Origin: Candidatus Neoruminococcus faecicola
GTDB taxonomy: Bacteria > Bacillota > Clostridia > Oscillospirales > Ruminococcaceae
Assembly: GCA_904398325.1 (NCBI GenBank)
Contig: CAJFPC010000028.1
Span: 1 to 41,830, forward strand
Reading direction: 5' to 3'
DNA length: 41,830 nt
Both the position numbers and the translations under genes were made by a program. Position 1 is the first letter of the stretch. Each line of letters begins with the position of its first letter. The notes beneath the pieces were generated by a model. The model was not told the origin of the DNA, made no database searches, and worked only from the letters and a program-made list of their open reading frames with translations. This document shows positions 28,694-41,830 of this stretch, in pieces.

Positions 28694-28777
28694 TTGAAAT
28701 AGTTTTCAGCCGCGGGCGGACAGCGGAAAATCCCCGCGGCTGCTCCTTTTATTTTGCGAGAGATAGGCGGTTTTGGC

Positions 28778-31126
28778 ATGTTAAATGAATATCTGGCGGC
28801 GCGCAGAAGCGCCATCGAGCGGTATTTTTCCCATATGAACTCCATGCAGCGCAAGGCTGTGTGCAAGACGGAGGGCCCGGTGCTGATCCTGGCGGGGGCG
28901 GGCAGCGGAAAAACCACGGTGCTGATCAACCGGGTAGCCAACCTGCTGCTGTTCGGCCGCGCCTATGAATCGGAGGAGACGGCCGGCCCGGTGACAGAGG
29001 AGGAGCTGGCGTATCTGCGTGCCTACGCCCGGGGGGAGCATGACGACATCGAAGGGGTGCGCCCCCTTGTTGCCTGCCGCCCGGTGGAGCCCTGGCGGGT
29101 GCTGGCTATCACCTTCACCAACAAAGCCGCCGGGGAATTAAAAAGCCGCCTGGCTGCCCAGCTGGGCCCGGCGGGGGAGGAGGTTTCGGCCTCGACCTTC
29201 CATTCGGCGTGCGTGCGCATCCTGCGCCGGGAGATCGGCGCGCTGGGGTATGCTTCCTCTTTTACTATTTATGATACGGATGATTCCCTGCGGGTCATCA
29301 AGGAAATCCTCAAGGCGGGCAACATCGACGAAAAGCGCTTTGCCCCCCGGTCCGTGCTCTCCTTCATCAGCCAGTACAAGGACAGCTTCCGCTCGCTGGA
29401 GGAATTTGGCGTCACGGCGGATCATTTTTATCTGAACACCTGCGCCAAAATCTATACCGAGTACCAGCGCCGCTTAAAGGCTGCCAACGCCCTGGATTTT
29501 GACGATATCATCGTGCAGACGGTGCGCCTGTTTCAGGAGCATCCGGACGTGCTGGAAAAATATCAGAATTATTACCGCTATATTATGGTGGATGAATACC
29601 AGGACACCAACAACGCCCAGTATCTGCTGGTGAGCCTGCTGGCCCGCAAGTACCAGAACCTGTGCGTGGTGGGCGACGACGACCAGAGCATCTATAAATT
29701 CCGCGGGGCCACCATCGAGAACATCCTCTCCTTCGAGCGGCAGTTCCCCGGCGCCACCGTCATCCGCCTGGAGCAGAACTACCGCTGCACCCAGAAGATC
29801 CTGGACGCCGCCAACGCGGTTATCGCCAACAACACCCAGCGCAAGGGCAAAAACCTCTGGACTGAAAACGAGACGGGGGAGCTCATCCAGGCCTATACCG
29901 CCCAGGACGAAATGGGCGAGGCCCGTTTTATCGCCGACACCGTGCTGGAGGCGGTCAAGGACGGGGCGAAATTTTCCGACCATGCGGTGCTCTACCGCAT
30001 GAACGCCCAGGCCAATACCATCGAGCGCGCCCTGGTTAAATCGGGGGTGCCCTACCGCATCATCGGGGGGCTGCGCTTTTATGAGCGCAAGGAGATCCGG
30101 GATATCCTGGCCTATCTGCAGGTCATTAACAACCCGGCGGATAACCTGCGGCTGCGGCGCATCATCAACGAGCCCCGCCGCGGCATTGGGGACAGCACCC
30201 TGGCCGCCGCCGGCGAAATCGCCGACGCGCTGGGGCTGAGCCTGTATGAGGTGCTCAGCCATGCGGAGGAATATGCGCCCATCGCCGCCCGGCGGCAGCC
30301 GCTGCAGCGCTTCTGCCAGATGATGGATCACTTTATCGCCGCCCGGGATTCCGGCGCTGCCCTGGAGGACCTTTTGGATCTGGTGCTCACCGAAAGCGGC
30401 TACCAGGAGGCGCTGCTCAAGGAGGGGCCGGAGGGCCAGGGCAGGCTGGAAAATATTGAGGAGCTCAAATCCAATATGGTGAAGTTTGAGGAGGAAAACG
30501 AGGACGGAGGGCTCGCGGAGTTTTTGGAGGAAATCTCCCTCTACACCGACCTGGATAACTACGACCCCGACACTGACGCGGTGACGCTGATGACGCTGCA
30601 TTCCGCCAAGGGGCTGGAGTTCCCCACCGTGTTTATCGCCGGCATGGAGGAGGGGGTCTTCCCCGGCATGCAGGCGATCCTCAACCCCGAAGAGGTGGAG
30701 GAGGAGCGCCGCCTGGCCTATGTGGGCATCACCCGGGCCAAAAAACACCTCTATCTGACGATGGCGCAGCAGCGCCTCATTTACGGCAAGACCAACCGCA
30801 ACCGTTCCAGCCGCTTTGTGCGGGAAATCCCCAAGGCGCTGCTCCACGAGACCGGAGAAAACCTCACCACCCGCCGCCTGGATGCCGCCCCGGCCCAGCG
30901 GGAGCGCAAAGTGTTCGGCCGGGAGCTGGGGGTGGGTGCCGGGGCGCCGCAGGCCGGCAGCGCCGGCAGCTTTGCCCCCGGGGACCGGGTGCGCCACAGG
31001 ACCTTCGGGGAAGGGATGGTGCTTTCCGCCACCCCCATGGGCGGCGACCACCTGCTGGAAATCGCCTTTGACAGCGTGGGAACCAAAAAGATCATGGCCA
31101 ATTTCGCCCGCCTCACCAAAGCGTGA
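28778..31126 (+). CDS. pcrA: PcrA/UvrD-type ATP-dependent DNA helicase
   Basis: This superfamily 1A 3'-5' helicase acts in nucleotide excision repair, removal of recombinase filaments and transcription-replication conflicts. The 782-aa protein has Walker A AGAGSGKTT near residue 38, motif Ia AITFTNKAA, motif II VDEYQDTN, motif III VGDDDQSIYKFRGA, motif IV LEQNYR, motif V LMTLHSAKGLEFP and motif VI YVGITRAKK. The C-terminus has the Tudor-like RNA-polymerase-binding domain (GDRVRHRTFGEGMV). About 45 extra residues lie between motif I and Ia. ATG 28778 is chosen over an upstream TTG at 28754. It stands alone with promoter and terminator. Confidence 0.95.
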   Translation: MLNEYLAARRSAIERYFSHMNSMQRKAVCKTEGPVLILAGAGSGKTTVLINRVANLLLFGRAYESEETAGPVTEEELAYLRAYARGEHDDIEGVRPLVACRPVEPWRVLAITFTNKAAGELKSRLAAQLGPAGEEVSASTFHSACVRILRREIGALGYASSFTIYDTDDSLRVIKEILKAGNIDEKRFAPRSVLSFISQYKDSFRSLEEFGVTADHFYLNTCAKIYTEYQRRLKAANALDFDDIIVQTVRLFQEHPDVLEKYQNYYRYIMVDEYQDTNNAQYLLVSLLARKYQNLCVVGDDDQSIYKFRGATIENILSFERQFPGATVIRLEQNYRCTQKILDAANAVIANNTQRKGKNLWTENETGELIQAYTAQDEMGEARFIADTVLEAVKDGAKFSDHAVLYRMNAQANTIERALVKSGVPYRIIGGLRFYERKEIRDILAYLQVINNPADNLRLRRIINEPRRGIGDSTLAAAGEIADALGLSLYEVLSHAEEYAPIAARRQPLQRFCQMMDHFIAARDSGAALEDLLDLVLTESGYQEALLKEGPEGQGRLENIEELKSNMVKFEEENEDGGLAEFLEEISLYTDLDNYDPDTDAVTLMTLHSAKGLEFPTVFIAGMEEGVFPGMQAILNPEEVEEERRLAYVGITRAKKHLYLTMAQQRLIYGKTNRNRSSRFVREIPKALLHETGENLTTRRLDAAPAQRERKVFGRELGVGAGAPQAGSAGSFAPGDRVRHRTFGEGMVLSATPMGGDHLLEIAFDSVGTKKIMANFARLTKA

Positions 31127-31234: not shown

Positions 31235-31261
31235 ACAATCAAGGCGGCCTTTCATAGTATG
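31235..31261 (+). promoter_or_regulatory. Candidate sigma-K-type promoter of the interrupted gene
   Basis: AC at 31235, a 16-bp spacer and CATAGTATG at 31253 fit the B. subtilis sigma-K pattern (AC, 16-17 bp, CATANNNTA) except for the last base. It lies 45 bases before the ATG at 31306. No sigma-A promoter competes after the pcrA terminator. Short consensus, so moderate weight only. Confidence 0.4.
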
Positions 31262-31305: not shown

Positions 31306-31410
31306 ATGTCAGAAGCAAAATACTGTGGTCAGAAGCCTGGCAACCTCAACCTGTTCAAAGAGGCCATGACCATCGAAGCCAAGCGGATCTATGATTCCTG
31401 TTCCGAATAA
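31306..31410 (+). pseudogene. 5' fragment of a Cys-rich gene split by the 9.6-kb element
   Basis: ATG 31306 has a good GGAGGAC ribosome site and encodes 34 residues beginning MSEAKYCGQKPG and ending RIYDSCSE. The frame closes at a TAA that belongs to the inserted DNA. If the DNA is joined at the shared TTCCGA (31401-31406 with 41000-41005), codon TCC is followed by GAC and the frame runs on through DRDCLEDLQVYF to the stop at 41696, giving a 263-aa protein with 23 cysteines. The segment RIYDSCSDRDCLEDL has the look of a conserved motif, and I believe similar uninterrupted proteins occur in other Clostridia, which I cannot verify here. It is therefore the start of an interrupted gene, not a peptide gene. 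Confidence 0.85.
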
Positions 31411-32807
31411 GATTGCCCGTCTTGGAGGATCACCTCCAGCGTGATTTCCCCCGGGGCGGCGCCGGGATTTTTTTGATAGAGGATTTTTTTCACAACCTCC
31501 CGCAGCAGGCGGTTCTGCCCGGCGCGGTCCTCGCCCAGCAGCTGCTGCCAACGGTTTTGCGGCGCGGGGGGACGGCTGGCCAGGGCGGCCTCCAGGCGCC
31601 TGTGCTGCTCCAAGAGGGCCGTCTGGTGACGGGTGAGCTCCTCCAGGCGGCTGCAAAACAGCTGCGGGGAATAAGCCCCCTCCTCCGCCAGGCGGCAGAG
31701 GCGCTCTTTTTTGCCCGGCAGGCGCCCCAGCTCCTCCCGGCAGAGGGCCAGCTGCCGGCGCAGGGAATCCAGCTCCTCCCGGGGTGCCGTCGGGGGCAGG
31801 GCCTCCAATACCGGGCGCAATAACCTCATGGCGCGCCGCCAGACAATCTCCAGCCGGCAGCCGGGCTGGCAGGCGCGGGTGGGGCAATAAAGATAAGGCA
31901 CGCCCTTATTCTGCCCCATGCGCTGCATCAGGCGGCCGCACCGGCGGCAGACCACCAGCCCGGCCAGCGGGTTTTTCAAAGCCCCGCGGCTGCGGGGCGC
32001 CGGGATGCCCTGCAGCCTTTTCTGGGCGGCGTAGAACCACTCCTGCGGGATGATGGCGGGGTGGACGCCGGCCCTGAGGGGGCCATCCGGCGGGCGCTGC
32101 GGCAGAAAACCGGCGTAGACCGGATTCTTCAGAATGTGCAGCACGCTGCTGCGGCCAAAGCTGGCAGCCCGGCGGGGCACTGCCCCCAGGCGGTTTAAGG
32201 TGTCGGCGATTTTTTGGCAGCCGAGGCCCTCCTCCAGGTACAGCCGGTAAACCAGGCGGACAAACTCCGCCTCCCGGGGCTCCTCCTCCAGCGAGGGCAG
32301 CCTGCCCTGCCAGCAGCGCCGGTAGCCGTAGGGTGGCAGCGAAACATGCCCGCCCCGCTGGATGGTGGACGAAATGCCCCGCTGCAGGCGTTTGGTGATG
32401 ATTTTCAGCTCCCGACGGGAGAAGAAGCTCTTCATTTCGGTGAGCTCCTCGTCCTCCTCCTTGGAAAGATCGTAGATTTTATCCGGCGTGATGATCTTGG
32501 TGCCGGAATTTTTAAAGGTCTCCAGAATAATGCCCTGGTCTTTCATGCCGCCGCGGCCCAGCCGGTCGATATCCATGCAGAGCACGGCGTCGTATCTGCC
32601 CGCTTCCACATCCTGCAGCAGGCGCAGCATTTCCGGCCGGCCGAGCAGGCTCTCGCCGCTGAGCACCTCCTCATAGCATCCGCCGATGGTAAGCTTCATC
32701 CGGCGGGCCAGAGCGGTCAGGGCCTCCCGGTGTTTGGAGAGGGTCTCCTCCCAGCTGCCCGCCCCTTCTTCCGCGCGGGATTTGCGCAGGTACATGGCTG
32801 TATACAA
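31389..32807 (-). CDS. Large serine recombinase (resolvase/integrase family)
   Basis: This site-specific recombinase would integrate or excise the surrounding element through a phosphoserine intermediate. The 472-aa protein has the catalytic resolvase domain with Ser10 in MYLRKSRAEE, the arginine region GRPEMLRLL and CMDIDRLGRG, then a recombinase domain (PPYGYRR to NPVYAGFLPQ), a zinc-ribbon (CRRCGRLMQR then CPTRACQPGC) and a coiled-coil-rich C-terminus. It is of the SpoIVCA/TnpX kind in size and layout. The start is TTG 32807 after AGGAGGTGG. The final codons cross the attachment site: the TAG stop is supplied by host-gene sequence, and in the excised circle the frame would continue about 23 codons further. 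No clear promoter was found. Confidence 0.93.
   Translation of the reverse strand: MYTAMYLRKSRAEEGAGSWEETLSKHREALTALARRMKLTIGGCYEEVLSGESLLGRPEMLRLLQDVEAGRYDAVLCMDIDRLGRGGMKDQGIILETFKNSGTKIITPDKIYDLSKEEDEELTEMKSFFSRRELKIITKRLQRGISSTIQRGGHVSLPPYGYRRCWQGRLPSLEEEPREAEFVRLVYRLYLEEGLGCQKIADTLNRLGAVPRRAASFGRSSVLHILKNPVYAGFLPQRPPDGPLRAGVHPAIIPQEWFYAAQKRLQGIPAPRSRGALKNPLAGLVVCRRCGRLMQRMGQNKGVPYLYCPTRACQPGCRLEIVWRRAMRLLRPVLEALPPTAPREELDSLRRQLALCREELGRLPGKKERLCRLAEEGAYSPQLFCSRLEELTRHQTALLEQHRRLEAALASRPPAPQNRWQQLLGEDRAGQNRLLREVVKKILYQKNPGAAPGEITLEVILQDGQSYSEQES
31390..31423 (+). other. attL: left junction of the element
   Basis: Host-gene sequence up to TTCCGA (31401-31406) is followed by the element arm AAGATTGCCCGTCTT (31409-31423). 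That arm is the partner, as reverse complement, of the arm at 40987-41001 (12 of 15 positions). The recombinase gene ends inside this junction. Confidence 0.8.
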
Positions 32808-32919
32808 GATGCTTCCACCTCCTGGCCTATGTTTATTCCCGCAGGATGCGCTCTAGGACTGGGGGACTTGGCTGCCGCCGGGGAGAAGGGCTGCCCCAAT
32901 AGCAAGCCGTCAAACAAAA

Positions 32920-32948
32920 TTGTTAAAAATTTACCCAAAGTTCATATT
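32920..32948 (+). promoter_or_regulatory. Candidate upstream promoter and Rex-like operator
   Basis: TTGTTA at 32920, 17 bp, CATATT at 32943 could be an upstream promoter of the butyrate operon. The 18-mer at 32920-32937 fits the Rex operator TTGTTAA-N4-TTAACAA at 12 of 14 positions (right arm TTACCCA) and covers the -35. The rest of 32808-33187 holds the recombinase leader, this site, an inverted repeat and the main promoter. Confidence 0.4.
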
Positions 32949-33040
32949 CTCGGCCTTGTATTCCCACAGGGGCTGTGTTAAAGTAAACAGGAAGAGAAGC
33001 AATTTCTGGCAGAAAAAGGTTTATCAGACTGCACAAAAGC

Positions 33041-33067
33041 TTAGGAAGATTTTCGTCAACTTCCTAA
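33041..33067 (+). repeat. Inverted repeat upstream of thlA promoter
   Basis: TTAGGAAG (33041-33048) and CTTCCTAA (33060-33067) are perfect 8-bp reverse complements, 17 bases before the -35 at 33084. It may be an operator or a leader hairpin of transcripts from the upstream promoter. Confidence 0.4.
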
Positions 33068-33083
33068 AAATGCTCCGACCGTA

Positions 33084-33118
33084 TTGCAATCCCGAAAAGA
33101 TTGTGATATATTTAACAC
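33084..33118 (+). promoter_or_regulatory. Main thlA promoter with overlapping Rex-like operator
   Basis: TTGCAA at 33084, 17 bp, TATATT at 33107. The 18-mer 33101-33118 (TTGTGAT, ATAT, TTAACAC) fits the Rex consensus at 11 of 14 positions and lies across the -10, a good place for repression. Rex control of thl-crt-hbd genes is known in clostridia; the site here is inference. Confidence 0.55.
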
Positions 33119-33187
33119 ATTGTAAAACCACCCTTCGCGGCGTATCAATCCGCCCGGCGGGAACGAAAAGAACGGAGGAAAATTATC

Positions 33188-34375
33188 ATGTCCAAGACCA
33201 TTGTTTTAGCAGGTGCTGTTCGTACGGCCATCGGCAAATTTGGCGGCGCTCTCGCCAACACCCCGGCGGTCACCCTGGGCTCCATCGTCATCAAGGAAGC
33301 GCTGGCGCGTGCCGGTGTCAAGCCCGAGCAGGTGGATGAGGTCTACATGGGCTGCGTGATCCAGGCGGGCCTGGGCCAGAACGTCGCCCGTCAGGCTTCC
33401 ATCAAGGCCGGTATCCCCATCGAGACCCCTGCCCTGACCGTCAACAATGTCTGTGGTTCCGGTCTGAAGTGCATCAACATGGCCGCTGCCATGATCGAGG
33501 CCGGCGAGGCCGACATCATTGTGGCCGGCGGTATGGAGAACATGTCTGCCGCCCCTTATCTGCTGGATAAGGCCCGTTTCGGCTACAGAATGAACAACGG
33601 CACCATTGTGGACTCCATGATCAAGGACGGCCTGTGGGAGTCCTTCAACAACTACCACATGGGCATCACCGCTGAGAACCTGGCTGAGAAATACAACATC
33701 ACCCGCCAGGAGCAGGATGAGTTTGCCGCCTGCAGCCAGCAGAAGGCGGAGAAGGCCATCGCCGAGGGCCGCTTTGAGGCTGAGATTGTCCCCGTTCCCG
33801 TGAAGGTCAAGAAAGAGACTGTGATGTTCGCTGCCGACGAGGGTCCCCGCAAGGGCGTTACCGCCGAGGGCCTGGCCGGCATGAAGCCCGCCTTCAAGCC
33901 CGACGGCGGCACGGTCACCGCTGCCAACGCCTCCGGCATCAACGACGGCGCCGCTGCCATTGTTGTCATGAGCGAGGAGAAGGCCAAGGAGCTGGGCGTC
34001 AAGCCGATGGCGAAATTCGTCGTGGGCGCTTCCGCCGGCTGCGAGCCTTCCATCATGGGCATCGGCCCGGTCTATTCCACCAGAAAGGCGCTGGAGAAAG
34101 CCGGCATGACCCTGGATCAGATCGACGTGATCGAGGCCAACGAGGCCTTTGCCGCCCAGTCCCTGGCTGTGACCAGAGAGCTCAAGTGGGATCTGGCCAA
34201 GGTCAACCCCAACGGCGGCGCTATCGCCCTGGGCCATCCGGTTGGTGCTTCCGGCTGCCGCATCCTGGTCACCCTGCTGCATGAGATGCAGAGAAACGGC
34301 CAGAAATACGGCCTGGCCACCCTGTGCGTCGGCGGCGGCATGGGCGTCACCACCATCGTGGAAAACTGCAAATAA
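33188..34375 (+). CDS. thlA: Acetyl-CoA C-acetyltransferase (thiolase)
   Basis: Thiolase condenses two acetyl-CoA to acetoacetyl-CoA, the first step of butyrate synthesis. The 395-aa protein has the acyl-carrying Cys89 in [11 protein letters not shown], the His of [10 protein letters not shown] and the second active Cys in LCVGGGMG near the C-terminus. It starts at ATG 33188 after CGGAGGAAAA and opens the operon. Arg is often written AGA here and in the next genes, unlike in most of the window; ilvE shows the same habit, so strong expression is a simpler explanation than transfer. Confidence 0.97.
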
Positions 34376-34413
34376 GGCCCTCTTTTAAGAGCCATAGATA
34401 GGAGCTGCGAGAA

Positions 34414-35190
34414 ATGGGCTATATTAAATACGAACAGAAAGAATTCATCGGCGTGCTGACCATCGACCGCGAAAAGGCGCTCAACGCCCTCAACAGCGAG
34501 GTGCTTACCGAGCTGAATGCAGCCATCGACGCCATCGACCTTGACGCCACCCGCTGCCTGATCATCACCGGCGCGGGGGAGAAATCCTTCGTGGCGGGCG
34601 CCGACATCGGCGAGATGAGCGGCCTGACCAAGGCAGAGGGCGAGGCCTTCGGCAAGAAGGGCAACGATGTGTTCCGCAAGATTGAGACCCTGCCGATCCC
34701 TGTGATCGCCGCGGTCAACGGGTTCGCCCTGGGCGGCGGCTGCGAGCTGAGCCTCGCCTGCGATATCCGCATCGCTTCTGAGAACGCTGTGTTCGCCCAG
34801 CCGGAAGCCGGCCTGGGCATCACCCCCGGCTTCGGCGGTACTCAGCGTCTGGCCCGTACCATTGGCATCGGCAAGGCCAAAGAGATGCTGTATACCTGCG
34901 GCCGCGTCAAGGCCCCCGAGGCGCTGCAGCTGGGCCTGGTCAATGCGGTTTATCCCGCCGAGCAGCTGATGGAAGAAGCCATGAAGCTGGCCGGCAAGAT
35001 CGCCGCCAACGCCCCCATTGCGGTGCGCGCCTGCAAAAAGGCGGTGGGCGACGGCATCCATCTGGATATGGACTCCGCCCTGGTGGTGGAGGAGAAGCTG
35101 TTCGGCAGCTGCTTTGAGACGGAGGATCAGCGCAACGCCATGACCGCTTTTGTGGAAAAGCGCAAGCCTGAGCCCTTTGTGAACAAGTAA
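34414..35190 (+). CDS. crt: 3-hydroxybutyryl-CoA dehydratase (crotonase)
   Basis: Crotonase dehydrates 3-hydroxybutyryl-CoA to crotonyl-CoA. The 258-aa protein has the enoyl-CoA hydratase oxyanion-hole segments FVAGADIGEM and NGFALGGGCELSLACD and the catalytic glutamates in GGGCELSLACD and QPEAGLGITPGFGGTQRL. Length and motifs are those of clostridial Crt. It starts at ATG 34414 after TAGGAG and is followed by a large intercistronic hairpin before hbd. Confidence 0.96.
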   Translation: MGYIKYEQKEFIGVLTIDREKALNALNSEVLTELNAAIDAIDLDATRCLIITGAGEKSFVAGADIGEMSGLTKAEGEAFGKKGNDVFRKIETLPIPVIAAVNGFALGGGCELSLACDIRIASENAVFAQPEAGLGITPGFGGTQRLARTIGIGKAKEMLYTCGRVKAPEALQLGLVNAVYPAEQLMEEAMKLAGKIAANAPIAVRACKKAVGDGIHLDMDSALVVEEKLFGSCFETEDQRNAMTAFVEKRKPEPFVNK

Positions 35191-35207
35191 AATTTACGCT
35201 CTTTTAT

Positions 35208-35251
35208 CGTTAGGGATGCACCTGTGTCAACCCTCCAGGTGCATCCTAACG
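35208..35251 (+). repeat. Long intercistronic hairpin between crt and hbd
   Basis: CGTTAGGGATGCACCTG (35208-35224) pairs with CAGGTGCATCCTAACG (35236-35251) as 16 bp with one bulged G and an 11-nt loop. No T-run follows, so it is not a classical terminator. A role in mRNA processing or stability is inferred. Confidence 0.7.
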
Positions 35252-35293
35252 ATTCATTATCAGAAAAATTCAATTGTGTAGGAGGAAATTACT

Positions 35294-36130
35294 ATGAAAA
35301 TCGGAGTTATCGGCGCCGGCACCATGGGTTCCGGCATTGCGCAGGTTTTTGCCGCTGCTGGCCACACCGTTCTGCTGTGCGACATCAGCGAGGATCTGGC
35401 CGCCAAGGGCAAGGATAAGATCGCCAAGGGCCTGGCCAAGCAGGTTGCCAAGGGCAAGATGGAGCAGGCTGCTGCTGACGCTGTCACCGCCAACATCACC
35501 ACCGGCACCAAGGAAATCGTCTCTGACTGCGACCTGGTGGTGGAAGCCGCTCTGGAAAACATGGAGCTGAAAAAACAGTGCTTCAAGGAGCTGGAAGGCA
35601 TCTGCAAGAAGGACTGCATCTTCGCCACCAATACTTCTTCTCTCTCCATCACCGAGCTGTCCAGAGGGCTGGATCGCGCCGTCGTGGGCATGCACTTCTT
35701 CAACCCCGTGCCTGCCATGAAGCTGGTGGAGGTTATCGCCGGCATCACCACCCCCAAGGAGACCGTTGAGAAGATCATCGCCCTGGCCACCGAGATCGGC
35801 AAGACCCCTGTGGAAGTCAAAGAGGCTGCCGGCTTTGTGGTCAACCGCATCCTGATCCCCATGATCAACGAGGCTGTGGGCATCCTGGCCGACGGCGTTG
35901 CCTCTGCTGAGGATATCGACACCGCGATGAAGCTGGGCGCCAACCATCCTATGGGCCCCCTGGCTCTGGGCGACCTGATCGGTCTGGATGTGTGCCTGGC
36001 CATTATGGAAGTTCTCCAGGCTGAGACCGGCGACGACAAGTATCGTCCTCATCCCCTGCTCAGAAAGATGGTTCGCGGCAACATGCTGGGCAGAAAAACC
36101 GGCAAGGGCTTCTTCGATTACACCAAATAA
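35294..36130 (+). CDS. hbd: 3-hydroxybutyryl-CoA dehydrogenase
   Basis: This enzyme reduces acetoacetyl-CoA to 3-hydroxybutyryl-CoA with NAD(P)H. The 278-aa protein has the Rossmann motif [14 protein letters not shown] at residues 7-20, the catalytic His segment [16 protein letters not shown], and the C-terminal helical domain ([15 protein letters not shown], then [16 protein letters not shown]). ATG 35294 follows TAGGAGGAAA. It is third in the operon. Confidence 0.97.
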
Positions 36131-36174
36131 GCTGGCGCGAAAAAGTCTTGTAAATTGAGTTTGGAGGAAGAAGA

Positions 36175-37311
<1,137 letters not shown>

Positions 37312-37344
37312 TGGAAGCTGAAAAGCGTAAAGGAGTGACTATTG

Positions 37345-38127
37345 TTGAATATCATCGTTTGCATTAAGCAAGTTCCCAATACCAACGAAGTGAAGCTGGA
37401 CCCCGTCACCGGCACCCTGATCCGTGACGGCGTGCCCTCCATCATCAATCCGGATGACAAGGCCGGCCTGGAGGCTGCCCTGCGCCTGAAAGACGAGCTG
37501 GGCGCCCACGTCACCGTGATCTCCATGGGCCCTGCCCAGGCGGATGCTGCCCTGCGCGAGGCGATGGCTATGGGCGCGGATGAGGCGATCCTGGTGACCG
37601 ACCGCGCTTTTGGCGGCGCCGACACCTGGGCCACTTCCTCCACCATTGCGGCGGCGATTTCCAAGCTGCCCTATGACCTGGTGATCACCGGCCGTCAGGC
37701 TATCGATGGCGATACCGCCCAGGTTGGCCCCCAGATCGCCGAGCATCTGCAGATCCCCAACATCAGCTATGCGGAGGAGATCAAGGTGGAAGGCGACAGC
37801 GTGATCGTCAAGCGCCAGTATGAGGACCGCTATCACATCGTCAAGGCCAAAATGCCTTGCCTGCTGACCGCCCTCAGCGAGCTTAACGAGCCCCGCTACA
37901 TGACCCCCGGCGGCATCTTTGACGCTTACCGCAGCAGAGAGATCACCGAGTGGCATCGGGACGACGTGCCGGTGGCCGAAGAGAACATCGGCCTGAAGGG
38001 CTCTCCCACCCGGGTGTTCCAGACCTTCACCAAGAGCCTGAAAGCAGCCGGTCAGATGGTTCAGCTGGATCCGGAAGAATCCGCTGAGTACATGCTTGAA
38101 AAACTGAAAGAGAAATTCATCATCTGA
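37345..38127 (+). CDS. etfB: Electron transfer flavoprotein beta subunit
   Basis: EtfB of the Bcd-EtfAB complex carries the FAD thought to bifurcate electrons from NADH. The 260-aa protein opens NIIVCIKQVPNTNEVKLDP and contains LAMG-type adenosine-binding sequence (AMGADEAILVTD), TGRQAIDGDTAQVGPQIAEH and the recognition-loop region PRYMTPGGIFDAYR. The start is a TTG; two lie in tandem (37342, 37345) and the second is better spaced from AAAGGAGTG. Confidence 0.95.
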   Translation: MNIIVCIKQVPNTNEVKLDPVTGTLIRDGVPSIINPDDKAGLEAALRLKDELGAHVTVISMGPAQADAALREAMAMGADEAILVTDRAFGGADTWATSSTIAAAISKLPYDLVITGRQAIDGDTAQVGPQIAEHLQIPNISYAEEIKVEGDSVIVKRQYEDRYHIVKAKMPCLLTALSELNEPRYMTPGGIFDAYRSREITEWHRDDVPVAEENIGLKGSPTRVFQTFTKSLKAAGQMVQLDPEESAEYMLEKLKEKFII

Positions 38128-38186
38128 CCGCTACGGATTAGCTTGGATGAAATTCATTTGATTGAGATAGGAAGTGTGCGAGCAAA

Positions 38187-39203
38187 ATGAATATTCAAGA
38201 TTATAAAGGCGTTTTTGTCTTTGTTCAGCAGGTGGATGGCGCCATCACCGGCGTTTCCTACGAGCTGATCGGCAAGGGCAAAGAACTGGCCAAGGCTCTG
38301 GATACGGAAGTCACCGCTGTGCTGCTGGGCTACCAGGTGGAAAACCTGTGCGATTCCCTGGCGGAGCATGGCGCCGACAAGATCATCCTGGTGGATGACA
38401 AGGCCCTGGAGGTCTATAAGACCGAGCCCTATGCCCATGCCATGTATGAGGTCATCGAACAGCACAAGCCTGAGATCGTGCTGTATGGCGCCACCGCCAT
38501 CGGCCGCGACCTGGCGCCCCGCGTCTCTGCCCGCGTGCACACCGGCCTGACCGCCGACTGCACCAAGCTGGAGATCGCCGAGGATACCAAGGAATTCCGC
38601 ATGACCCGCCCTGCCTTCGGCGGCAACATCATGGCTACCATCGTCTGCCCGGATTTCCGTCCCGCCATGGCGACGGTTCGTCCCGGCGTGATGCAGAAGC
38701 TCAAGCCCGTTGCCGGCGCCAAGGCCCCGGTGGAGAAGATGAACGTCACCTTCACCCCCAACAATATGGATGTGGAGATTCTTGACATCATCAAGAAGGT
38801 CAGCAATAAGATGGATATCCAGGATGCCAAGATCCTGGTTTCCGGCGGCCGCGGCATGGGCTGCCCGGAGAACTTCCAGCTGCTGCGCGACCTGGCCGAC
38901 GCCCTGGGCGGCGAGGTCAGCTCCTCCCGTGCCTGCGTGGACGCCGGCTGGGTGGAAAAGGATATCCAGGTGGGCCAGACCGGCAAGACCGTCCGCCCCA
39001 ACCTGTACATTGCGTGCGGTATTTCCGGCGCCATCCAGCATCTGGCCGGCATGGAGGAATCCGACGTGATCATCGCCATCAACAAGGATGAGACCGCCCC
39101 CATTTTTGAGGTCGCCGATTACGGCGTCGTGGGCGACGTGACCAAGATCCTGCCGATCTTCACCGAGAAGGTCAAGGAAGCGATGGCTGCCCGCAACAAG
39201 TAA
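38187..39203 (+). CDS. etfA: Electron transfer flavoprotein alpha subunit
   Basis: EtfA is the partner of EtfB in the bifurcating Bcd complex. The 338-aa protein has an N-terminal domain starting MNIQDYKGVFVFVQQVDGAI (20 residues) and the conserved C-terminal FAD domain with SGGRGMG, SRACVDAGW, GQTGKTVRPNLYIACGISGA and INKDETAPIFEVADYG. It is the last gene of the operon, before a strong terminator. No extra N-terminal ferredoxin domain is present. Confidence 0.96.
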   Translation: MNIQDYKGVFVFVQQVDGAITGVSYELIGKGKELAKALDTEVTAVLLGYQVENLCDSLAEHGADKIILVDDKALEVYKTEPYAHAMYEVIEQHKPEIVLYGATAIGRDLAPRVSARVHTGLTADCTKLEIAEDTKEFRMTRPAFGGNIMATIVCPDFRPAMATVRPGVMQKLKPVAGAKAPVEKMNVTFTPNNMDVEILDIIKKVSNKMDIQDAKILVSGGRGMGCPENFQLLRDLADALGGEVSSSRACVDAGWVEKDIQVGQTGKTVRPNLYIACGISGAIQHLAGMEESDVIIAINKDETAPIFEVADYGVVGDVTKILPIFTEKVKEAMAARNK

Positions 39204-39225
39204 AATCCAATCCATCACAGGATGA

Positions 39226-39261
39226 AAAAAGGCACGGCCCTCCCGGGGCTGTGCCTTTTTT
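39226..39261 (+). terminator. Terminator after etfA
   Basis: AAAAAGGCACGGCCC and GGGGCTGTGCCTTTTT pair with a TCCC loop; one G-T pair. Confidence 0.92.
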
Positions 39262-39274
39262 GCGGGGAAGAATC

Positions 39275-39306
39275 AAAAGAGGAGGGAAGTCCCTCCTCTT
39301 TTTTTA
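39275..39306. terminator. Terminator of the CoA-transferase gene (bidirectional)
   Basis: AAAGAGGAGGGA and TCCCTCCTCTTT pair perfectly around a short loop, with A and T runs on both sides. It terminates the minus-strand gene and can back up the etfA terminator. Confidence 0.88.
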
Positions 39307-39331
39307 GCTTGATGCGTTTTGTCTGCTGCGG

Positions 39332-40891
39332 TTATTTGCCCAGGCCCATGGGCTCGTCGCGGAAAATGCGCTCATCCATGGTCTTGAGATTTTCCGGAAT
39401 AATAGGCCGCGTGGGCATTTTGGCGAGGATATCCTTTTCCAGATCGACGCCCGGGGCGATCTCCGAAAGCACCAGCCCCTCTTTAGAGAGGGTGAACACT
39501 GCGCGCTCGGTGATGTAGGTGACCGGCAGGCTGTTTTTGATGGCGGTCTTGGCGGAGAAGGTGATGTGCTCGATGGACTGCTGGAACTTGCTGATGCTGC
39601 CGTCCTGCAGGATGTGCAGCTGGCCGTCCTTGACCTCCACCTTCAGGCCCTTGGCGGTAAAGGTGCCGCAGAAGAAGACCTGCTTGGCGTTTTGAGAAAT
39701 GTCGATAAAGCCGCCGCAGCCGGGCAGCTTGGGCCCGAATTTGGAGACGTTGACGTTGCCCTCCGGGTCGGATTCTGCAAAGCCCAGGAAGGCCTGATCC
39801 AGGCCGCCGCCCTGGTAGAAGTCAAACATCGAGGGCTGGCTGATGATGGATTCCGGGTTGAGGCTCACGCCGAAATCCAGGCCGCTTTGCGGGCTGCCGC
39901 CGGTGATGCCGGATTCCACCGTCAGGGTGAAGTGATCCAGGATCCCCTCTTCGGTGGCCACGTTGGAGATATACTCCGGGATGCCGATGCCCAGGTTGAC
40001 CACCGAGCCTTTTTTCAGCTCCATGGCGGCGCGGCGGGCGATGATCTTCTTGGGGCCCATTTCCGCCGGGGTGAAGGCGGAGGCGCCCAGGCGGTGCTCG
40101 CCGGAAAAGCCGGGGTTATACTGGGTGTTGAAGGTCTGCATGTGGTTTTTCATGTCGGAAACCACCACCACGGCATCCACCAGGATGCTGGGGATCTCCA
40201 CCTTCATGGGATCCAGAGAGCCGGTGGCCACCACGTTTTCCACCTGCACGATGACGGTGCCGCCGGAGTTTTTGCAGGCCTGGGCCACCGCCAGCGTTTC
40301 GCCGCGGATGGCCTCGCGCTCAATGGAGATGTTGCCGCTCTCGTCGGCATAGGTGCCGGCCAGCACGGCGAAGGTGATGGGGTGGCAGTCGTAGAACAGG
40401 TATTCCTTGCCGCCCAGCTCCATCAGATGGACCAGGTCCTCGGCGGCGCGGGTCTTCTCGTTGAGTTTGCCGCCCAACAGACGCGGGTCCACAAAGGTGC
40501 CCAAACCCACATGGGTCATGACGCCCGGCTTGTGGGCGGCGATGTCGCGGAACATATGGCACATGACGCCCTGCGGGAAATCGTAAGCCAGGATTTTGTT
40601 GTCGTCCACCATCTGGCCGATTTTGGGGGCCATGCCCCAGTGACCGCCGATGCAGCGGCGGATCATGCCGTCGTGGGCCAGGTGGTTGAGCCCGCGGGTA
40701 GCGCGGTCGCCCTGCGCCGCGGCGAACATCACGGTCAAATCACGCGGAGCGCCGGTCTCCACAAAGCGCTCTTCCAGCGCCATCAGCAGCTCCTCCGGGG
40801 TGGAGGCGCCGATAAAGCCGTTGGCGGCCAGGGTCGCGCCGTCCGGCACCAGATCGGCAGCCTGCCGGGCAGTGAGAATTTTTACAGACAT
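39332..40891 (-). CDS. Family I acyl-CoA:acetate CoA-transferase (propionate CoA-transferase/YdiF-like)
   Basis: The 519-aa protein fuses alpha and beta halves of a family I CoA-transferase: the alpha part with DGATLAANGFIGASTPEELL, glycine-rich TNP-like loops, and the beta part with catalytic Glu326 in LTVESGITGG. Related enzymes (propionate CoA-transferase, E. coli YdiF) move CoA between short acyl-CoAs and acetate. Facing the butyrate operon, it may turn butyryl-CoA plus acetate into butyrate plus acetyl-CoA; that substrate is inferred. It is not the But/Cat-type enzyme typical of Roseburia. ATG 40891 follows GGGGAGG. Its own promoter is at 40924-40951. Confidence 0.9.
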   Translation of the reverse strand: MSVKILTARQAADLVPDGATLAANGFIGASTPEELLMALEERFVETGAPRDLTVMFAAAQGDRATRGLNHLAHDGMIRRCIGGHWGMAPKIGQMVDDNKILAYDFPQGVMCHMFRDIAAHKPGVMTHVGLGTFVDPRLLGGKLNEKTRAAEDLVHLMELGGKEYLFYDCHPITFAVLAGTYADESGNISIEREAIRGETLAVAQACKNSGGTVIVQVENVVATGSLDPMKVEIPSILVDAVVVVSDMKNHMQTFNTQYNPGFSGEHRLGASAFTPAEMGPKKIIARRAAMELKKGSVVNLGIGIPEYISNVATEEGILDHFTLTVESGITGGSPQSGLDFGVSLNPESIISQPSMFDFYQGGGLDQAFLGFAESDPEGNVNVSKFGPKLPGCGGFIDISQNAKQVFFCGTFTAKGLKVEVKDGQLHILQDGSISKFQQSIEHITFSAKTAIKNSLPVTYITERAVFTLSKEGLVLSEIAPGVDLEKDILAKMPTRPIIPENLKTMDERIFRDEPMGLGK

Positions 40892-40915
40892 TGCATTTGT
40901 CCTCCCCTTATGCAT

Positions 40916-40951
40916 TTGTTAATATTATATCATTTTAAGGGAGAAATTCAA
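40916..40951 (-). promoter_or_regulatory. CoA-transferase promoter with Rex-like operator
   Basis: On the minus strand TTGAAT (40946-40951), 16 bp, TATAAT (40924-40929). The 18-mer 40916-40933 carries a perfect Rex half-site TTGTTAA and four of seven bases of the other arm (11 of 14), lying over the -10. Confidence 0.55.
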
Positions 40952-40955
40952 GAAG

Positions 40956-40969
40956 TGCAAGCGCTTTTC
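40956..40969 (-). promoter_or_regulatory. cre-like (CcpA) site upstream of the CoA-transferase promoter
   Basis: GAAAAGCGCTTGCA on the minus strand matches the cre consensus TGWAAGCGYTWNCA at 12 of 14 positions and lies directly upstream of the -35, where CcpA usually activates. Confidence 0.4.
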
Positions 40970-40986
40970 TGTGAAAAGTCTTTTAA

Positions 40987-41021
40987 AAGATGCGCATTCT
41001 TCCGACCGTGATTGTCTGGAG
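40987..41021 (+). other. attR: right junction of the element
   Basis: Element arm AAGATGCGCATTCTT (40987-41001) runs into the shared core TTCCGA (41000-41005) and then into the resumed gene at GACCGTGATTGT. With the left arm it makes an imperfect inverted repeat in the circular form. Confidence 0.8.
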
Positions 41022-41565
41022 GATCTGCAGGTCTATTTCACCGACTGCGCCCAGCCTGTCATCGACCGGACCCACCACATCAAGTGCAGAGAAGTCGAGC
41101 TTACTTATGTCCACATCGAAGTGGAATCGGTCCCGTTTAACAAGGGATTCTACACAGTTGACCTGACCTTTTTCTTTACGGTGAAGATTGCGGCCTACAC
41201 CTGCAACGCGCCTTCCAACCCGGTGGAGCTGGCGGGCATCGCCGTCTTCAACAAAAAGATCGTGCTCTACGGCAGCGAAGGCAACGTGAAGGTGTTTTCC
41301 ACCAACCAGTGCTCCAGCGAGTGCCATGGCCAGGAGCCCAACGCCACCGTGCAGGTGGCCGAACCGGTCTGCCTGGAATGCCGCCTGATGGATTGCTGCA
41401 ACTGCTTCTGCGAGCCGCTGTGCGGCATGCCGGAATGTATCTGCAACTGCATCGAGGGCAACTTCTGCGGCGTGGTGCCCAACCGGGCGGTATTTGTTAC
41501 CCTGGGGATTTTCTACATCGTCAGCCTGGAGCGCAGCACCCACATTATGATCCCTTCCTATGATT

Positions 41566-41653
41566 ATAAGATCCCGGAAAACTGCTGCCCTGACGGCAAT
41601 TGCCTGACCGATAACCCCTGCATGCTTTTCAACAAGATGAAATTCCCCTATGA
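41566..41653 (+). repeat. First copy of an 88-bp direct repeat (end of split gene)
   Basis: This segment of the gene, from ATAAGATCCCGG to CCCCTATGA, recurs at 41743-41830 with a single difference (T to C in CTATGA/CTACGA). Confidence 0.95.
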
Positions 41654-41707
41654 AGAATTCAATCCCCCGAAGCTGGATGATCTTTCTAACGACTGACGCA
41701 GGCAGCG

Positions 41708-41734: not shown

Positions 41735-41742
41735 GTTTTATG

Positions 41743-41830
41743 ATAAGATCCCGGAAAACTGCTGCCCTGACGGCAATTGCCTGACCGATAACCCCTGCAT
41801 GCTTTTCAACAAGATGAAATTCCCCTACGA
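41743..41830 (+). repeat. Second copy of the 88-bp repeat, cut by window end
   Basis: A nearly identical copy of 41566-41653 starts just after the terminator and runs off the window. It has no start codon or 5' part, so it is a partial duplicate of the same gene or the remnant of a tandem paralogue. The one base difference argues against a simple copying artefact of assembly, but does not exclude it. Confidence 0.9.

Follow-up and report, generated by a model that had tools for sequence, protein, structure and literature searches.

A split Cys-rich gene and the element inside it

We analysed contig C28 of the draft genome of Candidatus Neoruminococcus faecicola (G000), a stretch of 41,830 bp that we call the window. 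It contains a Cys-rich gene in two pieces, separated by a 9,599-bp insert with a large serine recombinase gene at its left end and a butyrate operon among its contents; judged by its anatomy, this insert is a skin-type intervening element. The draft consists of 94 contigs, is 92% complete, and is the sole genome in its genus within the genomes searched. Below, G numbers denote genomes of the family, and L numbers denote fetched loci. The junctions have the following features:

31306..31406, + strand: 5' part of the Cys-rich gene, residues 1-33 and the GA that opens codon 34 (ORF, join, homologues)
31405..31406, no strand: left crossover dinucleotide GA, within TTCCGA 31401-31406 (comparison of split copies)
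31407..31436, no strand: left inner arm, matches the inverted right arm (40974-41003) imperfectly, at 15 of 30 positions (arm comparison)
40974..41003, no strand: right inner arm of the element (arm comparison)
41004..41005, no strand: right crossover dinucleotide GA, within TTCCGA 41000-41005 (comparison of split copies)
41004..41696, + strand: 3' part of the split gene, DRDCLEDL to stop (join, homologues)

The first piece is a 34-codon frame that opens with ATG at 31306 and closes with ...RIYDSCSE-stop. The two copies of TTCCGA are spaced 9,599 bp apart, and deletion of one such interval connects 31306-31404 to 41004-41696 in a single 263-codon frame across RIYDSCS/DRDCLEDL, the product of which contains 23 Cys. 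A sequence-only reading of the window had proposed this join of two TTCCGA-bounded frames, and the sequence bears it out. That reading also let the gene resume at 40971: the join after TTCCGA is real, whereas the start at 40971 is a GTG within the element, and gene-derived DNA restarts at about 41000. A 6-bp repeat is weak by itself, and for the split it is homology that is decisive (see below). The inner arms agree at 15 of 30 positions, a value that the shuffled right arm got to in 0.28% of 5,000 shuffles. As in skin-type elements, a single gene is interrupted, precise removal restores a frame that matches homologues, both ends have a short core (TTCCGA/GA) plus inverted arms, and a site-specific recombinase gene lies at an end of the element.

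The sequence-only reading had listed a serine recombinase, thl-crt-hbd-bcd-etfBA and a CoA-transferase as the content of the insert, and searches with Pfam and NCBIfam identified the same genes (both databases for each of the seven cargo genes):

31389..32807, - strand: large serine recombinase, 472 aa, TTG start (Pfam PF00239, PF07508, PF13408; YLRKSR with the invariant Ser10)
33188..34375, + strand: thl, acetyl-CoA acetyltransferase
34414..35190, + strand: crt, short-chain enoyl-CoA hydratase
35294..36130, + strand: hbd, 3-hydroxybutyryl-CoA dehydrogenase (single match in the draft)
36175..37311, + strand: bcd, acyl-CoA (butyryl-CoA) dehydrogenase (single match in the draft)
37342..38127, + strand: etfB, electron transfer flavoprotein beta subunit
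38187..39203, + strand: etfA, electron transfer flavoprotein alpha subunit
39332..40915, - strand: CoA-transferase (PF01144, two stretches)

All three recombinase domains scored above cut-off and Ser10 is invariant across nine sequences, as expected of a large serine recombinase. The protein recurs at its length of 472 aa in a cluster of 12 member sequences. Its final codons and stop (31389-31406) fall in host gene DNA, across the junction, and its C-terminus would therefore differ after excision. The six genes from thl to etfA run in one direction, as in clostridial BCD operons. A search for a second Bcd or Hbd in the draft gave one match each, the copies in the element; members of the CoA-transferase family are also present on contig C45. 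The Pfam and NCBIfam scan of the recombinase and the seven cargo ORFs found no phage structural family, such as would mark a prophage, and the GC content of the element is within the range of its flank, with no GC shift.

Intact homologues and the ancestral locus

The joined protein has matches in 225 of the 396 family genomes searched. Outside G000, the top 15 have 46-53% identity, cover at least residues 14-258 and are free of stops across the join. Intact homologues run on from DSCS into DKDCLEDL, as the proposed split implied, and the consensus of 56 aligned proteins across the join is DSCSDKDCLEDL. A first contig scan using the joined protein gave no relative; a collection of 5.8 billion proteins gave 1,038 matches. 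Among the 120 homologues listed, identity was at most 52%, setting aside the window's own right-hand piece.

The ancestral locus is marked by the upstream neighbour of the gene:

28754..31126, + strand: pcrA/uvrD-type helicase gene (relatives in 26 of 30 genomes including G000; adjoins the gene's homologues)

A pcrA relative and the gene, or part of it, were present together in 34 fetched loci and lay near each other in all but a few, with a strand order that varies between groups of loci. On the opposite side of the gene we found relatives of the genes on contig C72, one of them thymidylate-kinase-like (judged by eye). An exact overlap of 41 bp connects the end of C28 to the start of C72; the locus in G000 thus runs from pcrA through the 5' part, the element and the 3' part to the C72 genes. 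In G277, the genome with the closest Bcd (86%), pcrA and an intact copy of the gene are near 0.73 Mb and the operon is near 2.0 Mb of the same contig; given this distance, the butyrate operon is unlikely to be ancestral at this spot.

Sporulation context of the target gene

A putative promoter lies between pcrA and the 5' part of the gene:

31235..31261, + strand: sigma-K-type promoter motif, AC at 31235-31236, 16 bp, CATAGTATG at 31253-31261 (motif search)

The motif AC-N15..18-CATAnnnT, which we take to be the sigma-K consensus, was found in 60 of 67 distinct 220-bp regions upstream of the target gene; since the species are related, these regions are only partly independent. Shuffled regions gave a mean of 3.5 and a maximum of 7, and the reverse strand gave 1. 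The spacer was 16 bp in 58 regions and 17 bp in two. Upstream of other ORFs in the fetched loci, the motif was present in 40 of 1,772 cases (21 of 482 in the low-GC subset). SpoIVA was found in G000 and, across the family, in 338 of 396 genomes; the host bacterium is likely spore-forming. The split gene is likely a late-sporulation gene, with transcription in the mother cell predicted from the motif.

The sigK gene of the same genome is, on the sequence of two contig ends, split near its 3' end by another element. The SigK-type protein on contig C76 (L278, at the contig end) ends after ...GISRSYV, with 75 bp of contig beyond the stop, and the missing tail, SYVSRIEKKAIEILAKYLR, is at the start of contig C13 (L038). 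The two sides have in common an 11-bp core, CGGAGCTATGT, plus 13-bp perfect inverted arms; the assembly leaves a gap between these contigs where the sigK element would lie. The tail pattern was also matched once in the backwards control and so carries no weight by itself; the split is supported by the common core, the inverted arms and the position at a contig end. The truncated protein passes the SigK subfamily model NF004471 (271.4 versus 252 bits). With model TIGR02846 the G000 match is under the cut-off, and 11 of 14 control genomes match, none of them over the cut-off. With both sigK and the Cys-rich gene split, the target gene would need two rearrangements. The comparison with skin, already drawn from the sequence alone, gains weight from the sigma-K-type motif at the target gene and from this split sigK.

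A recurrent target of dedicated recombinases

We re-examined 33 of the 225 gene-bearing genomes, picked for truncated or multiple matches, and refer to the residue at which the G000 copy is split as site A. Copies split at site A with both parts on one contig were found in G077, G160 and G337 (36.8-38.9 kb apart), in G060 (3.7 kb) and, at short spacing, in G391 (1.7 kb) and G359 (1.5 kb). The parts are on two contigs in G096, G103, G127 and G295, and the 3' part alone was seen in G319. Including G000, at least 12 of the 225 genomes, from several genera, carry a copy split at this residue. Several double matches (e.g. G061, G154, G222) turned out to be gaps in the alignment of a single frame and were not counted as insertions.

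GA lies at the identical codon in all 11 pairs from site-A genomes, G000 among them. From named contigs, 16 loci were given for pairing of complete elements. Of these, 15 yielded a pair, with GA as the core in 14 cases and a different core in L077; the bounds of L152, the locus that gave no pair, come from separate mapping. Counting once the pair seen both as L120 and as G060, there are 25 distinct split pairs, some from close relatives, and the same GA dinucleotide is the break in 24 of them. Agreement of the inner arms across pairs ranges from 12 to 22 of 30 positions, and the mean over the 11 pairs is 18.7, compared to 8.5 for shuffled arms and 12.2 between elements. The gene is also split at a second site near residue 154 (G004, G082, G036, G391, G359; L050, L051, L063, L064, L069, L070) and at a third near residue 228 (G295, G130; L047, L049, L071). 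G391 and G359 carry two splits, and the halves in G130 are 371 kb apart.

In 10 of the 12 site-A cases there is, at one end of the element, a recombinase that is G000's own or 38-46% identical to it. At the two further sites (B and C), three recombinases have 20-29% identity to that of G000, and the long frames of G391, G359 and G295 gave no match to it. A search with nine aligned site-A recombinases gave 252 relatives in named genomes; among the top-scoring 80, a distance rule placed part of the target gene next to the recombinase in 70. For viral contigs, the figure is 12 of the best 80 out of 216. The ten misses in named genomes (L106, L111, L126, L136, L141, L143, L144, L146, L150, L151) include some short contigs. 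Phage records contained distant recombinase relatives only (358 records, all below 60% identity, the best about 35%). This unnamed Cys-rich gene is a recurrent target of intervening elements, reported here for the first time.

The cargo differs widely among elements at the site. Terminase, portal, head or tape-measure proteins mark those of G160, G337 and G077 as prophages; nine of ten proteins given for phage typing fell in head, packaging or tail families. The elements of L081, L093, L108, L113 and L135 are 1.8-1.9 kb long, scarcely more than the recombinase. Others carry a xanthine/uracil permease (L074), a DEAD-box helicase and an alcohol dehydrogenase (L077), or an undecaprenyl-diphosphate-synthase-like protein and a cupin (L095, Clostridium sporosphaeroides DSM 1294). 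Between the gene halves of L152 (4620-11480; Candidatus Pseudobutyricicoccus lothianensis) we found a ClpB-type protein, an aldo/keto reductase and an FMN reductase. When the seven cargo proteins of G000 were compared with 24 mapped pieces and with 160 loci that included flanks of up to 10 kb, which covered large or contig-cut elements only in part, no butyrate gene was found inside other elements; two partial matches, an hbd in L158 (40%) and an etfA in L138 (59%), both lie beyond the gene part, outside the element.

Separately, the last ~45 codons of the G000 gene and its terminator are present again after the stop as a slightly diverged tandem repeat (41739-41830; positions 1-120 of L037, contig C72). 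The repeat begins near the third insertion site of the family; it may be what is left of an earlier element, or may reflect a difference between strains.

Predicted excision and comparison with known elements

We consider it probable that the insert was placed by the recombinase at its left end, and that it is excised in the sporulating mother cell. The recombinase would have inserted the element at GA (31405 / 41004), and the same enzyme, together with a presumed directionality factor, would excise it. Excision would be confined to the sporulating mother cell; if precise, it would restore the 263-codon gene and would remove from the mother-cell chromosome the only butyrate operon detected. 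The forespore would retain the element, so that butyrate synthesis would be back after germination. That mother cells could lose the pathway had been suggested from the window alone, and we regard it as a fair prediction.

A broader proposal is put forward only tentatively, as we rate it somewhat below an even chance: spore-forming Oscillospiraceae may have a programmed germline/soma split at one sigma-K gene, made by dedicated recombinases, with the site acting as a safe haven that traps single-copy host genes (the butyrate operon, the ClpB-type protein, the DEAD-box helicase, the nucleobase permease). In G000, the sole butyrate pathway would be cut from the mother cell and kept by the spore.

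Programmed excision in a differentiated cell also restores a gene in the case of the nif and fdxN elements of heterocyst-forming cyanobacteria; host, development and cargo all differ in G000. Closer parallels are known from sporulation. The skin element in sigK of Bacillus subtilis and Clostridioides difficile is likewise a large-serine-recombinase element in a mother-cell sporulation gene, removed precisely (PMC5025042); in G000 the target is an unnamed sigma-K-type gene, the cargo is a central metabolic operon, and excision is predicted. SPbeta splits the sigma-K-dependent gene spsM in B. subtilis, and spsM needs both the SPbeta and the skin rearrangements (PMC4191935). SPbeta is an active phage, in contrast to the G000 element, in which no phage structural gene was recognised. 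For skin and SPbeta, excision is described as restricted to the mother cell (PMC5025042; PMC4191935). The gin element in gerE of Bacillus cereus ATCC10987 is a non-prophage element with serine recombinases and non-phage cargo, and its target gene is rebuilt in sporulation; it comprises 31 genes, including three recombinases, a restriction-modification system and recJ, with a GC content below that of the host (PMC5595907). The G000 element instead has one recombinase, no GC shift and an energy pathway. The yin element in yabG of Clostridium botulinum V73 also has a recombinase next to the 5' part of a sporulation gene, and its three Pfam domains are those of the G000 enzyme; yin is a prophage reported in one strain only (PMC10747680), whereas the present target is struck in many genera.

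The order thl-crt-hbd-bcd-etfB-etfA is that of the clostridial BCD butyrate operon, and it is identical in five of 16 fetched Bcd loci (L262, L263, L266, L267, L275). Unlike these, the G000 copy is inside a recombinase element with a divergent CoA-transferase, which was not found beside other BCD operons. Among the open-access papers listed by literature searches we found no report of a butyrate operon in an intervening element, nor of this target gene.

On the anatomy of the locus, then, this is a skin-type element in a new, heavily used target gene, with an unusual metabolic cargo. The intervening elements of sporulation genes described in the reports cited here are prophages, prophage relics and islands (PMC5025042, PMC4191935, PMC5595907, PMC10747680), and losing them should be of little cost to the mother cell. 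In G000, the predicted excision would take away a central energy pathway, so that development and core metabolism would be coupled via DNA loss. The analysis also brings to light an uncharacterised Cys-rich gene of sigma-K type that is split at one dinucleotide in many genera. Elements at the same site are present in the cultured relatives Caproiciproducens galactitolivorans BS-1, Massiliimalia timonensis and Clostridium sporosphaeroides DSM 1294, which give direct experimental access to excision, to its control and to the capture of host genes.

Alternative explanations and the origin of the operon

Several observations weigh against programmed excision in G000. Neither an excised joint nor a circle was seen, and the 120 listed homologues include no full-length copy close to this species. 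About 20 recombinase-domain residues present in eight aligned relatives are missing from the G000 recombinase, no directionality factor was recognised in the element, and the site-A elements of G391 and G359 have no recognisable recombinase. The G000 protein is changed at 11 of 79 conserved columns; the mean in 119 references is 2.1 and the maximum is 9. A second butyrate operon could lie outside the 92%-complete draft, and the copy count covers Bcd and Hbd. The sigma-K motif was found upstream of none of 69 recombinases and a loose sigma-E pattern upstream of four (shuffles mean 1.5, reverse strand 7), and neither motif was found within the G000 element. In SPbeta and C. difficile skin, the recombinase is described as constitutive and the directionality factor as sporulation-controlled (PMC5595907); by analogy, recombinase upstream regions that lack these motifs would be compatible with excision.

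Some of these points would equally suit a dying or domesticated insertion, in which the recombinase inserted the element, the exit was then lost, the spore gene is decaying and the butyrate operon is now stable chromosome. We regard this as unlikely. The 11 changed columns exceed anything in the references, and two other split copies are also high (10 in G103 and 13 in G127), which together with the missing recombinase residues and the lack of a recognised directionality factor or sporulation motif in the element argues for decay. The other five of the eight site-A copies that entered this comparison (eight of 12, G000 included) have only 0-5 changes, however, and G000 is a long branch in PcrA as well. 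Both parts of the gene are open and in phase over 263 codons, its promoter motif and the recombinase frame are retained, and the recombinase recurs at its 472-aa length in its cluster of 12, all of which speaks against decay.

A mobile butyrate island, that is, an element that travels between species as a vehicle of butyrate genes, had also been suggested for the window, and did not stand up to the comparison; we find it improbable. The recombinase is of a phage-type family with wide integration, and Bcd is patchy, being present in 43 of the 396 family genomes (E <= 1e-100). The Bcd of G000 is 83-86% identical to those of five genomes of two other genera, and its grouping with the g75 pair is weakly supported (0.57). 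Related butyrate genes are present on a 504-kb plasmid of Pusillibacter faecalis (73% identity over 24% of the query), so butyrate genes of this kind may in general be mobile. Against a vehicle stand the lack of butyrate genes in the other elements examined and the unremarkable GC content. Among 30 genomes searched, 26 with a PcrA match (E <= 1e-100) entered a comparison of Bcd and PcrA distances, in which the residuals of G000 against the five closest genomes were within 2 standard deviations (z -1.3 to -1.95). In the relatives examined, the operon lies away from any site-A recombinase: the 16 Bcd loci contain no close relative of the G000 recombinase, and L265 has two weak matches (25%). A DNA search of 50,697 phage records gave no close match to the element (a single record matched 1% of the query), and the viral contigs contained no Bcd relative. 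Most likely, the operon is host DNA lodged in a shrunken element of prophage ancestry; it may have been transferred from another genus.

That an assembly error set the operon between two pieces of one gene is highly improbable. In favour of an error, the draft is in 94 contigs and the window closes with part of the gene tail repeated. Against it, both junctions are within one contig, the break is at the dinucleotide used by the other GA-type split copies, and inverted arms flank it. The right-hand frame (241 aa, starting inside the element) is also found, 100% identical, in a protein cluster with 4 member sequences from 7 contigs; the longest of these contigs (54,775 bp) exceeds the window contig, and the right junction is therefore not peculiar to this assembly.

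Among the Bcd loci, we also observed a second bcd-etfB-etfA copy in G359 (L265 9867-12912, compared to L266), 97% identical over 3,048 bp. It sits on a 28-kb contig with two recombinase-like frames, and is possibly another mobile butyrate segment.

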